DNA from: a virus
Length of the DNA: 24,663 bases
Virus record (IMG/VR): IMGVR_UViG_3300033142_000336
Span: 1-24,663 of that record
Strand: one strand, 5' to 3'
Shown here: in pieces, positions 6,373 through 23,534 of the stretch
Layout of the letters: every line of letters begins with the position of its first letter
Numbering within the stretch: the stretch's first letter is position 1
The notes under the pieces: model-generated
The model's input: only the letters and a program-made list of their open reading frames with translations
The model's database searches: none
Told to the model about the DNA's origin: nothing
Program-made: the position numbers and the translations under genes

Positions 6373-6659
6373 TACTTAGACCTACCTTCTGCAAAACCTT
6401 TAAAAGACGAAGCTTTACTTTCGGTTTTGTCATTTTGAATCATATTATTTTCTTCTTCTATCCTTGTTAATATTTCAAATGCATCAAATATTGCCAACTT
6501 CTTAGATGCTGCTGCATTTTTAAGTCTATCTGCTGCTATATCAGGCGCAAGCCCGTCTAAGTCTTTTTTTAAAATGCTTTCATTTGCAACTTTAATAAGC
6601 TCTTTGACAGCTTTTTTTCCTGCCTTTATAATTTCTAATTTTAATTCAGTATTATTCAT
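6372..6659 (-). CDS. Small helical protein upstream of TerL; candidate terminase small subunit
   Basis: A 95-residue, almost entirely helical protein with a hydrophobic middle (DRLKNAAASKKLAIFDAFEI) and a C-terminal tail ending GFAEGRSK. It is translationally coupled on both sides: ATGA overlap with the upstream gene and TAATG overlap with the terminase gene. A small terminase subunit, the DNA-recognition partner, usually lies just here and has this size. However, no helix-turn-helix is obvious, so the assignment rests on position. It could equally be an unrelated conserved head-module protein. Confidence 0.55.
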   Translation of the reverse strand: MNNTELKLEIIKAGKKAVKELIKVANESILKKDLDGLAPDIAADRLKNAAASKKLAIFDAFEILTRIEEENNMIQNDKTESKASSFKGFAEGRSK

Positions 6660-7219
6660 AGTATTAAAGTTATATTGTTAGTAAACATTCTGTAAAGTTT
6701 TTCTCCATCTACAGTAAACTCATATTCACTATTGGGTTGAAAAGAAATCTTATCACCCTCCCTAATACCTTTGCTATTTAATTCTTGATTTGAATATTTT
6801 AACACACCGACTAAAGGTTCTTCATCTTGGTGTGTTTTAAGGTAGTGGTTTTGTTTTTTAATTGGTTTTACCATGCAATATTTAGAATGACACGACCATT
6901 TATCGTCATGTTTATACATGTAAAACTGATCGAAGTCTATAAAGAATAAATTATCTTTAAAAAAACTTTTACCACTTCTTTCTTTTCCTTTCATGTCATT
7001 ATAATATTTAAAAACATTATGATGAACTAAAAGTGTATCTCCTGGAGATATTTCTCCATTATAATTTATAGGCACAGATATTACTTCTGCGTATCTATTT
7101 GATGCGGTATAATCCTCTTTGGATGTGCTTGTTATAAAATCAACATTTCCAATTTTTTTTGTGTGATTATACCTTCTGTCATTGCATGGTTTTACAATGA
7201 AGTAAAAAGGTGATTTCAT
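6656..7219 (-). CDS. Conserved phage protein with two GroES-like barrels (putative)
   Basis: 187 residues. The second half (118-187) reads like a co-chaperonin barrel: a start like LVGVLKYSNQEL, then IREGDKISFQPNSEYEFTVDGEKLYRM (residues 152-178) and a closing hydrophobic strand (NNITLIL). This parallels the GD-[IV]-x-[FY] strand, acidic turn and terminal strand of GroES. The first half has a similar arrangement, with GEISPGDTLLVHH at 55-67 and FFIDFDQFYMY at 92-102. I infer two beta barrels of the GroES-like fold; catalytic residues are not expected. It overlaps both neighbours by ATGA, inside the packaging operon. It may act with the GroEL encoded at 20330-21901, or may be a structural protein that merely uses the fold. 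Function unproven. Confidence 0.55.
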   Translation of the reverse strand: MKSPFYFIVKPCNDRRYNHTKKIGNVDFITSTSKEDYTASNRYAEVISVPINYNGEISPGDTLLVHHNVFKYYNDMKGKERSGKSFFKDNLFFIDFDQFYMYKHDDKWSCHSKYCMVKPIKKQNHYLKTHQDEEPLVGVLKYSNQELNSKGIREGDKISFQPNSEYEFTVDGEKLYRMFTNNITLIL

Positions 7220-15695: not shown

Positions 15696-16120
15696 AACTC
15701 GCAGTATTCATTATAAGCATCAAAGCAAGGACAAGATTTTCTAGCAAATTCATTATGTCCATGAATTGTAGCTTTTGGAAATATATTTTTAAGTAATTTT
15801 AATAAAGATAAAAGACTATCTTTTTGTTCAATTGTTCTATTGTCGTCTGCTTCCCATTTTCCATCCTCACCTCTTTCTTCTTTTACTCCTCCTGCATAAC
15901 AAATTCCGATTGAGTTCCTATTCAGTCCCTTTGTATGAGCGCCTGATTTTTCAAGAGGTCTTCCTAATTCTATCTGACCATCTCTTTTAATAAAAAAATG
16001 GTAGCCAATTCCTGACCACCCTCTTTTCTTGTGCCATCTGTCTATCTCTTTTGCATCTATATCGTGAGATGGTCGAGTAGCAGAGCAATGTATAATTATT
16101 TTATTTATTGTTCTTTTCAT
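15692..16120 (-). CDS. Endolysin: N-acetylmuramoyl-L-alanine amidase, T7 lysozyme type
   Basis: 142 residues of the Amidase_2 family; it cuts the bond between muramic acid and the peptide of peptidoglycan. Aligned to T7 lysozyme by eye, the zinc ligands are H11 (IIIHCSAT), H122 and C130 (HNEFARKSCPCFD), and the catalytic pair is Y40 (GIGYHFFIKRDG) and K128. GAHTKGLNRNSIGICYAGG fills the central core. All key residues are present and the length is normal. There is no signal sequence, so it depends on the holin. It overlaps a small membrane-protein gene by 20 bases and the holin by ATGA. Confidence 0.92.
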   Translation of the reverse strand: MKRTINKIIIHCSATRPSHDIDAKEIDRWHKKRGWSGIGYHFFIKRDGQIELGRPLEKSGAHTKGLNRNSIGICYAGGVKEERGEDGKWEADDNRTIEQKDSLLSLLKLLKNIFPKATIHGHNEFARKSCPCFDAYNEYCEL

Positions 16121-16262
16121 TGTAATTAATCCATATTCTCTGTGCCGTATATATTATAGACGCTGCTAATAGAATTAATTTTAATACCATCTCAATATGA
16201 GTGAATGAAATAGCAAGGCTTAATGTGTTGAAAGCGTATATTTTAGCGTCTTGCACAGTCAT
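16101..16262 (-). CDS. Small membrane protein of the lysis cassette
   Basis: 53 residues from ATG at 16260-16262: MTVQDAKIYAFNTLSLAISF, then a strong membrane helix (EMVLKLILLAASIIYTAQRIW, about 24-44) and a charged end (NYNEKNNK). The last 20 bases overlap the amidase start in another frame. It could be a second holin, an antiholin or a spanin-like component. No lipobox is present. Such single-TM proteins with a THIEMVLK-type stretch are common in Bacteroidota phages. It begins by TAATG overlap with the tiny frame at 16262-16333. Confidence 0.65.
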   Translation of the reverse strand: MTVQDAKIYAFNTLSLAISFTHIEMVLKLILLAASIIYTAQRIWINYNEKNNK

Positions 16263-16333
16263 TATTCTTTAATAAGTGTGTAATTTACCTCTATGTCCAA
16301 CAACCAACTGTTGTTCTGCGTATATTCTACCAT
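16262..16333 (-). CDS. Possible 23-residue peptide
   Basis: ATG at 16331-16333 overlaps the end of the 85-residue gene, and its TAA shares an A with the next ATG (TAATG), giving MVEYTQNNSWLLDIEVNYTL plus IKE. The two-sided coupling matches its neighbours and the beta-like composition is plausible, but it is very short. It may only relay ribosomes to the membrane-protein gene. Confidence 0.4.
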   Translation of the reverse strand: MVEYTQNNSWLLDIEVNYTLIKE

Positions 16334-16584
16334 AATGCAATAATTTCTCCTGCTGTAGTTCCTGTGTCATATACTTGCAAAACATTGACAGGAAAAAATT
16401 GACCTGCATAACATCCTACAAAAATAACATCGTCTCCACCAACTGTTTTTACTCTAACATTACCTGGTAATCCAATATACAAAGCGCAACCATTATTTGT
16501 TCCGCCTGTCACGCTAGGAATTTCATCAGTATCACTTGGTGTCACTAGTGCAGCTCTTCCTGCTTGTAATTTTTGATAAGCCAT
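16327..16584 (-). CDS. Small conserved virion-type protein
   Basis: 85 residues beginning MAYQKLQAGRAALVTPSDTD, a start I recognise from many marine phage proteins, followed by a beta-rich body (GCALYIGLPGNVRVKTVGGD, VIFVGCYAGQFFPVNVLQVY) and ending EIIALW. Probably a small beta-sandwich structural or spike-related protein. The stop (TAG at 16327-16329) overlaps the next small frame. No functional assignment. Confidence 0.65.
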   Translation of the reverse strand: MAYQKLQAGRAALVTPSDTDEIPSVTGGTNNGCALYIGLPGNVRVKTVGGDDVIFVGCYAGQFFPVNVLQVYDTGTTAGEIIALW

Positions 16585-19565: not shown

Positions 19566-20033
19566 ATGAAAATTCGAAGAAAGATTCGCAGGATATACGA
19601 ACGCTACCAACCAAAAAATGATTACTTAAAATATTGGAAAGTAATTAAACAATGGGCTAAAGTCAAATACGATGTAAGTACTGCTGATATTGAAATGATG
19701 ATGTTCTTATACAGCGAAGGGTTATTTACTCAAAAACAATTTGAAGAGTATAATGAAATCATGTCGTGGGATAAAAACCGATTTCACAATTTACTAAAAG
19801 ATAAATGGATTATAGTTTGGCGTAAACGCAAAGGCCGTGAGGCAACGTTGTACGAACTTGGCTTTAGGGGTAAGCGCTTATGCGCTTCGATTTATAAAAA
19901 ATTGAATATGGAGGAAACTGTATCAGAAGATAGAAGACGAAATCCTATATTTGAACCGAACGCAACTTACTCTCACAAAGTATATCGTAAGATAATTAAG
20001 AAAATGAATCAGGAAATAAAAAAGAAACTATAG
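19566..20033 (+). CDS. Winged-helix DNA-binding protein candidate
   Basis: 155 residues, the only rightward gene within the leftward block. Residues about 38-110 read like a MarR-type winged helix: helices VSTADIEMMMFLYSEGLF and TQKQFEEYNEIM, a recognition-type segment SWDKNRFHNLLKDKWI, then a wing VWRKRKGREATLYELGFRGK. Both ends are strongly basic (MKIRRKIRRIYERYQ; KIIKKMNQEIKKKL). It starts about 14 bases after the palindromic double promoter, so autoregulation and control of the divergent leftward genes are natural guesses. Its 3' end overlaps the groES end by 6 bases, tail to tail. Regulator identity is inferred from fold pattern only. Confidence 0.7.
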   Translation: MKIRRKIRRIYERYQPKNDYLKYWKVIKQWAKVKYDVSTADIEMMMFLYSEGLFTQKQFEEYNEIMSWDKNRFHNLLKDKWIIVWRKRKGREATLYELGFRGKRLCASIYKKLNMEETVSEDRRRNPIFEPNATYSHKVYRKIIKKMNQEIKKKL

Positions 20034-20333
20034 TACAACTACAATATCTCTTTCTGAAATAATTGTAACTACCTCTTCTTCCAACATCATTCTGTGTCCT
20101 GCATTTTTATCGTAATAAATTATATCTCCTTCTTTCACAACGCTAACTTCAGTCCCTGGGATTTTTATCAAACCTTTTTTGTATCTTAGTAGATTGCTGT
20201 CGTCTGACGTTAGTAAAATACCTGACTCAGTTTTTTGCTGTTCTTTTATTTCTGTAATTACAATATACTTACCTACCGCTTTCATTTTCTTTTTTTTTAA
20301 AATCTCTATGCCCTCGTTAATCCAATGGTTCAT
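20028..20333 (-). CDS. groES: Co-chaperonin GroES (Cpn10)
   Basis: 101 residues. After a 16-residue lead, MKAVGKYIVITEIKEQQKTE corresponds to the GroES start. The mobile loop that docks onto GroEL is seen as KTESGILLTSDD (34-45; compare E. coli KSAGGIVLTG). KEGDIIYYDKNAG (68-79) and a terminal VVTIISERDIVVVL (88-101) complete the barrel. The start at 20333 overlaps the groEL stop by ATGA, favouring the longer form by coupling; M17 is a possible alternative giving 85 residues. It caps the GroEL folding chamber. Bacterial operons normally have groES first; here the order is reversed. Divergence from host GroES is large. Confidence 0.88.
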   Translation of the reverse strand: MNHWINEGIEILKKKKMKAVGKYIVITEIKEQQKTESGILLTSDDSNLLRYKKGLIKIPGTEVSVVKEGDIIYYDKNAGHRMMLEEEVVTIISERDIVVVL

Positions 20334-21901
20334 TTTCTTTTCATTGTTACAATTGCATTTGTACTTAATATTGTAGTTGCTACACTTACTGCATTTTTCA
20401 ATGCGTTTTTCGTAACCTTCGCAGGGTCAATTACACCCATTTTGTACATATCGCCAAATTTTTTGTTCTTAACATCATATCCTTCTGTGTAAGGAACACC
20501 TGCACATTGGCAAATTTTATCTCTTATCTCTTTTATGTTATCGCCTGCGTTGGTTAGTATTTGTTCTAGTGGCGCACATAAAGCTCCATACAATATATCG
20601 GCTGCATCTCCATCGCCTAGTTGTTCTCCACATCTAAGTAGCGCTACACCTCCACCTGGAAGGATGCCTTCTTCAATTGCTGACTTTACTGCGCAAACCG
20701 CATCTTCGACACGATCATACTTTTCTTTCTGCTCAATATCTGAGTTAGCCCCAACATAAATTACTCCTACTGCTCCGGAAAGTAATGCGATTCTTTCTGA
20801 AATAAAATCTCTATCCTTTTTCTCTTTACTATTTTCTTTCTGAACCTTAAGCTCTTCTATTCTATTTCTTGCTTCTTTACTGCTTTCTTCGTTATTAATT
20901 ATAACTGTAGTATCTTTTCCTACAATAATTTTATCAGCATGTCCCAAATCTTGCATTGTCAACATACCGATATTGTCACCCTGAGATTCACTAAAGTATT
21001 TTGCGCCTATCGCTAAAGCTATATCAGACATTAGTTCATTAGTCTTGTATCCAAAAGATGGTGGTATAATATTGCAGAGCTTCAAATTATTCTGAACAAC
21101 ATTTGCCGCCAAAGTGTTTGTGACGTTTTGTGCGCAGTTTCCTATAATCAAAAGCTTCTTGTTGTTATTGATTATTGGTTTTAATATATTCTCGATTTGC
21201 AAAATGTTTGTAATCTCCATGTCTGTCATTAAAACATACACGTCATCTAAAACACATTCATCGTTTCTATGGTTATTAATAAATAACTTTGAACTGTATC
21301 CTCTATCAATCTTGATTCCCTTAGTTACTTCGTAGTAAGTACTTTCTGTTTTACTATTCTCAACTGTAAGTATTCCGTCTTTACCTAATTCTTTATAAGC
21401 ATCTGAAATCATTTTCCCAAGTACTGGGTCGTTGTTTGCAGAAATGGTAGCTACGTCACGCAAAGTTTTCCCCGTAACTTTTTTCGAAGACTTTGATAAA
21501 CTCTTAATTACACCCTCAGTCAAACTATGAATATCACGAACTAATTGTGTGGTATTAACCTCAGGGTTTCTTTGAATCAATCGCATACCCTCTTTGACAA
21601 TAGCTTCAGTAAGTACGATTGCTGTAGTTGTTCCGTCACCTGCTGAGGTTGCAGTTCTATCAGCTGCTTCTTTCATCATGCGAATAGCTAAGTTCTCTAC
21701 TGCATCTTCAAGGTCAATAGATTTTGCTACAGTCACTCCGTCTTTTGTAACTGTAATTCCTGCTGTATGATTTTGTGATTCAATAAGTACTGTTTTACCT
21801 AGCGGCCCTAATGTACTCTTAACGGCTTTGGATATTTTAGTTATGCCGTTTAATAACTTGTCTCTCCCTTCCTGATCGAAAGATAGCTCTTTTGGATTCA
21901 T
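20330..21901 (-). CDS. groEL: Chaperonin GroEL (Cpn60)
   Basis: 523 residues, complete, an ATP-driven folding chamber. Nucleotide-site motifs are intact: STLGPLGKTV (29-38), TKDGVTVAK (52-60), AGDGTTTA (87-94), D400 in RVEDAV (the equivalent of catalytic D398 of E. coli) and PGGGVALLR (415-423). The apical domain (about 190-370) keeps the GroES/substrate-binding helices (ITNILQIENILKPIINNN and the following CAQNVTNTLAANVV). The C-terminus stops at VTMKRK, without the Gly-Gly-Met tail of the E. coli protein. First gene of a two-gene operon with groES; TATATTTG box at 21925-21932 with CGACAT repeats just upstream. No SD sequence. It likely assists folding of phage capsid or fibre proteins. Confidence 0.95.
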   Translation of the reverse strand: MNPKELSFDQEGRDKLLNGITKISKAVKSTLGPLGKTVLIESQNHTAGITVTKDGVTVAKSIDLEDAVENLAIRMMKEAADRTATSAGDGTTTAIVLTEAIVKEGMRLIQRNPEVNTTQLVRDIHSLTEGVIKSLSKSSKKVTGKTLRDVATISANNDPVLGKMISDAYKELGKDGILTVENSKTESTYYEVTKGIKIDRGYSSKLFINNHRNDECVLDDVYVLMTDMEITNILQIENILKPIINNNKKLLIIGNCAQNVTNTLAANVVQNNLKLCNIIPPSFGYKTNELMSDIALAIGAKYFSESQGDNIGMLTMQDLGHADKIIVGKDTTVIINNEESSKEARNRIEELKVQKENSKEKKDRDFISERIALLSGAVGVIYVGANSDIEQKEKYDRVEDAVCAVKSAIEEGILPGGGVALLRCGEQLGDGDAADILYGALCAPLEQILTNAGDNIKEIRDKICQCAGVPYTEGYDVKNKKFGDMYKMGVIDPAKVTKNALKNAVSVATTILSTNAIVTMKRK

Positions 21902-21924: not shown

Positions 21925-21932
21925 CAAATATA
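21925..21932 (-). promoter_or_regulatory. groEL promoter -7 box TATATTTG
   Basis: The minus strand reads TATATTTG 23 bases before the groEL ATG. In place of a TTG -33 element, the two minus-strand CGACAT copies (21948-21960) lie 15-28 bases upstream, where an activator would bind. Confidence 0.55.
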
Positions 21933-21947
21933 CAAAAAAATTAACAC

Positions 21948-22137
21948 ATGTCGCATGTCGATTTTATTTTTCTATATATATATATATATTTATATAGTAG
22001 TATTATTTTTTATTTCCCTGTATAATTAGTAAAAAAACCGACATAATCGACATAAATTATATATTTATATTGAAAATCAGTAAGTTACACCAAAAAAAAA
22101 CGACACAAACTCGACATAGCTCGACATATGACGACAT
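21948..22137. repeat. CGACAT repeat cluster
   Basis: CGACAT occurs on the minus strand at 21948-21953 and 21955-21960, and on the plus strand at 22039-22044, 22048-22053, 22112-22117, 22122-22127 and 22132-22137, with a CGACAC variant at 22101-22106. The last three are spaced exactly 10 bases apart and the variant 11 bases before them, so they lie on one face of the helix. The two halves point inward across the AT tract. Confidence 0.75.
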
Positions 22138-22138
22138 A

Positions 22139-22171
22139 AAAAAGGGGTCGATGTATATCAAACCCCTTTTT
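22139..22171 (-). terminator. Rho-independent, potentially bidirectional terminator
   Basis: A 10-base perfect stem AAAAAGGGGT / ACCCCTTTTT (22139-22148 with 22162-22171) and a 13-base loop. On the minus strand it lies just downstream of the 68-residue gene and yields a U-run, so it would end that transcript before the groEL promoter. A-tract symmetry allows function in the other direction too. Confidence 0.7.
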
Positions 22172-22204
22172 CTGAGAAACACAATCTAATTGTTGGGAAG
22201 AAAG

Positions 22205-22411
22205 TTACCTGTAAATACTGTAAAAATCTTTTTTAGCTTCTGCTAATTCGATTCCTTCTGCAATCATACTAATCTTCTTAGCACGATCTTTAGCTTTTTT
22301 AAAGCTAGCTAATTTTTTAATGCCCATTTCATAATATTGACCATGACCATCTAGCTCATGTTTATTTCTTGAGGACATATATTCTTTCATGATAGGCTTT
22401 TTCATTTTCAT
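22205..22411 (-). CDS. Small basic helical protein
   Basis: 68 residues, MKMKKPIMKEYMSSRNKHEL, then DGHGQYYEMGIKKLASFKKA and KDRAKKISMIAEGIELAEAK. Mostly charged helix, no recognised domain. One base separates it from the upstream stop (TAAGATG); a terminator follows. Last gene of a two-gene unit. Confidence 0.6.
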   Translation of the reverse strand: MKMKKPIMKEYMSSRNKHELDGHGQYYEMGIKKLASFKKAKDRAKKISMIAEGIELAEAKKDFYSIYR

Positions 22412-22710: not shown

Positions 22711-22779
22711 ACCTACACCCCACACCCCCACACCCCCACACCACCACCACCCCACACCCACACCACGCCAAACGCCCCC
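22711..22779 (-). repeat. G/T-rich low-complexity tract on minus strand (G-quadruplex prone)
   Basis: The minus strand carries six runs of three to five G separated mainly by TGT or TGGT. Three G4-G5 runs are 3 bases apart; the next is 12 bases away, so a four-tetrad quadruplex would need one long loop. The plus strand could form an i-motif. Confidence 0.55.
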
Positions 22780-22978
22780 AATTTTTAGGCGTATTCTTTC
22801 CCCCTTTCCCCCTTTTTTTATTTTACACAAAACAAAACAAAGGGTTAAACACGCCCCAAAATTTTAAAATACTTAACTTTTTTAATACTAAAATTTGCCC
22901 AAATCAACACACCAAAACACCCAAAACACACCCCAAAAAATAAATTTCCAGAAAAAAAGACAATTTTTTTTTGCCCCT

Positions 22979-23003
22979 TAACTTACTGAAAATCAATGAT
23001 TTA
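22979..23003. repeat. Imperfect palindrome around TGAAAATCA, second copy at 22063-22087
   Basis: TAACTTACTGA followed by AAA and TCAATGATTTA. The other copy has the same centre (TTGAAAATCA) with the perfect arm on the opposite side (TCAGTAAGTTA), so the 11-mer TAACTTACTGA is present as an inverted pair about 900 bases apart. Confidence 0.5.
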
Positions 23004-23117: not shown

Positions 23118-23534
23118 ATGAAAAACTCAGTAAAAACAAACTCAGTAAAAGCGACAATTTCAAAAGCTAAAAAAGTCGTTAAGAAATCCGAAAGCGTAAT
23201 TTTAAAAACGCAAATCAATAACAATTGGAAATTGGCAACCCGTTCAATGAGTGGCCTTGTAAGATACGCAAAAGGCGAAGGGGCAAAAGATTTGCAAAAG
23301 TTAATAGATGCCACTAACAAAAAAGAGGGCGTAAAAGTCTCACTTAATCAAGTGGCAAATGTTAAAAATATCGTAGCCAATGCAACAGAGAGAGAATTAT
23401 TTAAAAACCTATCCACTGAAAAAGGCGAATTTATCAAAGGCGATAAAAAGACTTTGTTTTCTTTTTGGTTGGTTCTTTTAACTGTTGGGCGAATTGCTAA
23501 AGTAGAAAAAAAGAAACTTGCGAAAGCTATTTAA
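23118..23534 (+). CDS. Lys-rich protein of unknown function
   Basis: 138 residues. A basic N-terminus (KNSVKTNSVKATISKAKKVV) is followed by a helical middle (LVRYAKGEGAKDLQKLIDAT, then VSLNQVANVKNIVANATERE) and a hydrophobic stretch FSFWLVLLTVGRIA (about 114-127) before a basic end. It has a good promoter and is followed by a strong hairpin, so it looks like a stand-alone transcription unit. I recognise no family. Early-gene, host-takeover or nucleoid roles are open. The DNA around it appears richer in G and C than the small genes on either side. Confidence 0.65.
   Translation: MKNSVKTNSVKATISKAKKVVKKSESVILKTQINNNWKLATRSMSGLVRYAKGEGAKDLQKLIDATNKKEGVKVSLNQVANVKNIVANATERELFKNLSTEKGEFIKGDKKTLFSFWLVLLTVGRIAKVEKKKLAKAI

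Follow-up and report, generated by a model that had tools for sequence, protein, structure and literature searches.

A repeat array beside groEL in a 24.7-kb fragment of a marine IMG/VR phage (the window, meaning the whole stretch of 24,663 nucleotides analysed here) is, in our judgment, probably the iteron-type replication origin of a flavobacterial podovirus, with iterons bound by the C-terminal winged helix of the phage's own PrimPol/D5-SF3-like primase-helicase. Our reasoning for assigning the array to this protein is that one of its residues, residue 761, and the third base of the repeat change together across relatives. Recognition of the array word by the winged helix is strongly supported by this comparison of sequences. 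As the primase-helicase gene lies outside the window, whose terminase matches those of flavobacterial podoviruses, the reader of the window array is deduced from relatives; the closest of these (G001) combines Thr761 with the CGACAT word.

The repeat array upstream of groEL

The array (site A) occupies the gap between groEL and a small gene at 22205-22411(-). The first-pass annotation described eight repeats here within 190 non-coding bases, and its description held in each respect: there are seven CGACAT copies (starting at 21948(-), 21955(-), 22039(+), 22048(+), 22112(+), 22122(+) and 22132(+)) and one CGACAC (22101(+)); the two left copies are opposed to the six copies to the right of an AT tract; and the last three CGACAT copies are spaced by exactly 10 bases. 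By chance a stretch of 190 bases would contain 0.036 copies of CGACAT, against the seven observed (Poisson p about 1e-14, uncorrected for the choice of place), and the whole window holds 11 against 4.64 expected. The iteron extends beyond these six bases, and in full it approximates AAATCGACAT. The AT tract spans 78 bases, and 2 of the 24,585 windows of that length are as AT-rich. Two marks of an iteron origin are found together, namely short repeats beyond chance in non-coding DNA and an adjacent AT-rich region. A shift in cumulative GC skew had been suggested as a further sign of an origin; a minimum does lie near site A, yet we rejected it as uninformative because the skew simply follows gene direction, with which it is fully confounded. 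The features of the region are collected in Table 1.

Table 1. Features of site A and its surroundings, in window coordinates
Feature	Position	Strand	Basis or remark
groEL, gene adjoining site A, 'late' side	20330..21901	-	Pfam Cpn60_TCP1 5.4e-57; phrog_5725 2.6e-133
groEL -7 box TATATTTG	21925..21932	-	fits TAnnTTTG
Iteron, left pair, distal copy (CATGCGACAT)	21948..21957	-	about -52 from groEL ATG in many relatives
Iteron, left pair (AAATCGACAT)	21955..21964	-	about -59 from groEL ATG in relatives
AT-rich tract, proposed unwinding element	21961..22038	.	88.5% AT; AT tract kept in relatives
Iteron, middle pair (AAACCGACAT)	22035..22044	+	about -143 from groEL ATG, conserved
Iteron, middle pair (TAATCGACAT)	22044..22053	+	about -152 from groEL ATG, conserved
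Quasi-palindromic element TAACTTACTGATTTTCA, between middle pair and right array	22071..22087	-	conserved; recurs at B sites
Iteron variant, right array (AAAACGACAC)	22097..22106	+	sequence
Iteron, right array (AACTCGACAT)	22108..22117	+	sequence
Iteron, right array (AGCTCGACAT)	22118..22127	+	sequence; 10 bases after preceding copy
Iteron, right array (ATGACGACAT)	22128..22137	+	sequence; 10 bases after preceding copy
Terminator-like hairpin (AAAAAGGGG / CCCCTTTTT), end of the small gene	22138..22173	-	sequence

Relatives were gathered through GroEL, and conservation of the cluster was seen at about 75-94% GroEL identity. The expectation that close relatives would carry the cluster at the same place was upheld, with near-constant distances from the groEL start: iterons of one orientation lie at about -59/-52, those of the opposite orientation at about -143/-152 and between -205 and -237. 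Other CGACAT copies in close relatives are for the most part single and mostly within genes. In other clades the layout is kept and the word is different, being ATGCTTA/TAAGCAT in G005, G006, G010 and the distant G019, CGTCA in G018/G021 and TCAACAT in G016/G020. A further, independent complete genome, MW202828, shows this layout as well: ATGTCG/CGACAT is found both at site A and at a second site described below, and the residue equivalent to 761 is Thr.

We take TATATTTG to be the -7 box (TAnnTTTG) of a Bacteroidetes-type groEL promoter. The left iteron pair covers the expected position of the -33 TTG of this promoter and no TTG is present there, as had been noted at the outset. A scan for sigma-70 promoters found 20 against 19.2 expected, which is chance level and was set aside, and the hairpin at the end of the small gene was unflagged in the consensus scan. 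The quasi-palindromic element of site A fits TAACTnnYTGATWWTCA. Two near-copies of the slightly looser TAACTnnYTGAWWWTCA occur in the window, at 22071-22087(-), inside the iteron cluster, and at about 22979-22995(+), before a rightward gene at 23118. At 22717-22781, some 0.82-0.88 kb from groEL on its upstream side, is a tandem repeat rich in C (rich in G when read on the groEL strand). Many IMG/VR contigs have an end close to this region, and in G007, G008, G016 and G017 repeats of G runs occupy that strand at 0.9-1.3 kb upstream of groEL. The window also encodes a second GroES-like protein beside the terminase (6656-7219(-); phrog_13932, 2.3e-24), distinct from the groES at 20028-20333.

A second site and the primase-helicase that covaries with the repeat

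In full-length relatives the same word and layout recur just before the primase-helicase gene (site B), and in the CGACAT clade the last copy overlaps the start codon of that gene. Site B is the smaller of the two, with 1-3 CGACAT copies in the close relatives checked, where there are few clusters besides site A. The distance between the sites is about 11-20 kb or less (G001-G003, G008 and G009; that for G001 is approximate, measured round contig ends). The word switches in step at both sites, being CGACAT in most close relatives, of the TAAGCAT type in G005 and G019, and CGTCA in G021. No array was seen directly before the primase gene in G011, G012, G013, G014 and G023. Of 260 B sites, 39 contain the quasi-palindromic element of site A, whereas mononucleotide shuffles give 0.06.

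The primase-helicase has about 808 residues and belongs to phrog_28855, a family listed as of unknown function. Because the full-length AlphaFold model is poor (pLDDT 58), we used only N-terminal matches and a separately folded C-terminus. A primase domain is found by Pfam (BT4734-like_N and PriCT_1) and by Foldseek, in which the N-terminal half matched the RepB' primase of RSF1010 (E 5e-4) and, more weakly, the NrS-1 PrimPol. The helicase region, which is poorly modelled, scores above the cut-off for DUF5906 and carries Walker-like GGTGKG and FDD motifs; one relative gives a weak match to the P4-family profile TIGR01613. From these motifs and weak profile matches the helicase would be classed as D5/SF3-like. 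The last 119 residues are confidently predicted to form a winged helix (pLDDT 83, with helix 71-86 at about 95), in which residue 761 is model position 72, the second residue of the predicted recognition helix. The origin-binding domain of P4 (1KA8) was matched at Z 5.0, tied with many other winged helices, so that the resemblance of the predicted domain to it is one of shared fold only. An hhalign comparison with P4 alpha gave nothing meaningful, and no sequence match to it was detected.

Primase-helicase genes were collected with their upstream DNA, giving 171 distinct proteins (residues are numbered as in the L085 primase-helicase) and 105 loci in which base 3 of the iteron could be called. 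Many iterons fit A[A/G]TNRRCA, and residue 761 predicts base 3 in all 105 loci, Ile or Val going with G and other residues, mostly Thr, with A. Among all alignment columns of this first panel, residue 761 has the highest mutual information with base 3. The split was first spotted by eye and tested afterwards, and for this reason two further scans were run. In a later set of 89 new proteins, 61 of them callable, which shares clades with the first panel, the rule was obeyed by 59 of 61; the two rule-breakers (L494 and L497) are apparently close copies of each other. After de-duplication the rule holds in 143 of 147 cases. Since relatives are not independent, the changes were mapped on a tree that leaves out the C-terminal domain. 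Independent pairs agreed with the rule six times and opposed it in no case (p=0.031). Of eight independent switches in the DNA, residue 761 tracked seven; none of the 11 other best columns tracked more than four. The switch can be seen between near-sisters that are 90% identical, L199 (Ile, AAGTCAACA) and L215 (Thr, AAATCAACA).

Site A follows the same rule: where it could be called in genomes with Ile (G005 and G019), base 3 is never A, and in genomes with Thr it is mostly A; that a site so far from the gene should obey it argues against a purely local linkage effect. Words outside the base-3 rule occur in the clades of G011, G012, G014 and G018/G021, and within the CGTCA clade both Thr and Ile are found at residue 761 without a clear change of base. 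A further residue of the predicted wing, 783, changes from Arg to Lys along with the change from CGACA to CGTCA in 12 of 12 loci, but we do not rely on this pattern because the loci probably represent a single clade.

Proposed initiation mechanism and alternative readings

We infer that site A fires as an origin, and likewise infer the steps of binding, loading and unwinding and the choice of the firing site. A plausible scenario is that the C-terminal winged helix of the primase-helicase recognizes 8-10 bp iterons close to AAATCGACAT, and that two opposed helicase assemblies are loaded once both flanks of the 78-bp AT tract are bound. These would open the AT tract, synthesis would then be primed, and replication would proceed in both directions from the gap between divergent early and late genes. 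Site B would probably be a second cis element, comparable to crr of P4, and/or a place at which the initiator represses its own gene. A more far-reaching version of this model, which we think doubtful, is that the initiator at site A also occupies the TTG-less groEL promoter region and so couples replication initiation to late-gene switching, that residue 761 sets one iteron base throughout the family, and that the fast-changing iterons represent escape from origin-targeting satellites or nucleases.

The first-pass annotation had left the choice between an iteron origin and activator sites for a phage regulon. The origin side of that proposal has gained from the conserved cluster, from site B and from the covariation with residue 761, whereas the activator side has gained no positive support, as no TAnnTTTG box is visible at site B and a repeat overlaps the primase start codon. 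A broader form of the regulatory reading is that a phage activator or repressor, the 155-aa protein encoded at 19566-20033, binds at the array, where it governs groEL and late-gene expression, and at site B, where it governs the primase gene. This would make sense of the left pair at the expected groEL -33 element and of the overlap of site B with a start codon, and the protein is encoded in 24 of the 24 genomes compared, one homologue being annotated as a repressor. Nevertheless, we regard it as improbable: the word covaries with the winged helix of the primase-helicase, site B lacks a visible matching promoter box, an AT-rich tract between opposed repeats is superfluous for a simple operator, and the 155-aa protein has no family match beyond an unannotated PHROG. 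The suggestion that this protein is the binder found no support, as inspection of 24 sequences by eye, a less thorough look than that given to the primase-helicase, revealed no residue pattern.

We are equally disinclined to the view that the primase-helicase binds both sites merely in an autoregulatory or accessory capacity (of the incompatibility or handcuffing type) while the true origin lies elsewhere. That there are two sites, one of them overlapping the primase start codon, is in keeping with such a role, and the initiators of iteron plasmids also bind operators of their own genes. However, an AT-rich tract with opposed iterons is what an origin usually consists of, and both sites have one; the close relatives checked have few CGACAT clusters besides site A, with 1-3 copies at site B. 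A small helix-turn-helix protein with DnaA domain IV is encoded in most relatives (for example G002, 15974-16336(-); L088:15974-16336). That this DnaA-like protein binds the repeats seems very improbable to us; AATCGACA resembles a DnaA box, the G002 protein matches Pfam Bac_DnaA_C (1.5e-13) and the gene lies in the replication region, but it was undetected in G003 and G004, both of which have full CGACAT arrays.

If site A is an origin read by the primase-helicase, as we favor, phrog_28855 acquires a function and a DNA site to which it binds, along with a predicted determinant of specificity, residue 761. Near-sister pairs in which residue and base switch together make the specificity of initiator for origin testable by single changes. 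We found no account of such an origin or initiator in this phage family in the literature searched. The drift of iterons under conflict is also a live question, for PLE satellites change their iterons and thereby escape an origin-directed nuclease of the phage (PMC8263062).

Comparison with known systems

There are precedents for this arrangement. In phage P4 a single protein, alpha, combines primase and helicase with an origin-binding winged helix at its C-terminus; the winged helix binds the ori repeats, after which unwinding and priming take place (PMC4234260). The iterons of P4 are likewise short (8 bp), about 10 bp apart and in both orientations, and there are two separate cis regions, ori and crr, each with 8-bp repeats in its annotation; the second site with the same word in our relatives may correspond to this two-region plan. 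The systems differ in that (i) the P4 primase is of the TOPRIM type and the one described here is PrimPol/AEP-like, (ii) site B extends over the beginning of the initiator gene and (iii) P4 is a satellite, whereas the present phage is tailed and has its own structural genes.

The Rep helicases of SaPIs use their C-terminal domain to read iterons, and apparently do so as two hexamers; Cch2 of SCCmec likewise reads AAGTG iterons by this domain (PMC7581432). By description these are also self-loading initiator helicases whose C-terminal domain reads short iterons adjoining their own gene, and in SaPI5 Rep, too, a primase is fused to the helicase (PMC7581432). Their origin lies downstream of rep, however, while here site B precedes the primase-helicase gene, with the larger array at a distance of 11-20 kb (G001-G003, G008 and G009). 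ORF904 of the crenarchaeal plasmid pRN1 similarly joins a PrimPol and a helicase to a C-terminal winged helix (PMC4234260), but the origin proposed for it is a stem-loop and not a set of iterons. Conversely, iteron plasmids (Rep/DUE) resemble site A in having direct repeats beside an AT-rich unwinding element, although their Rep proteins are not primase-helicases.

Elemoviruses have GroEL and terminase relatives in common with this phage family but encode a different primase, annotated as TOPRIM (NC_055853 6219-8078, L531), and a separate replication initiation protein, which suggests an exchange of the replication module. Because their primase is a different, TOPRIM-annotated one, Elemovirus isolates do not offer a test system for the primase-helicase module. 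Set beside these systems, the pairing of site A with the primase-helicase would be of an ordinary kind, an iteron origin with a self-loading initiator, in which the natural switch of specificity is unusually clear.
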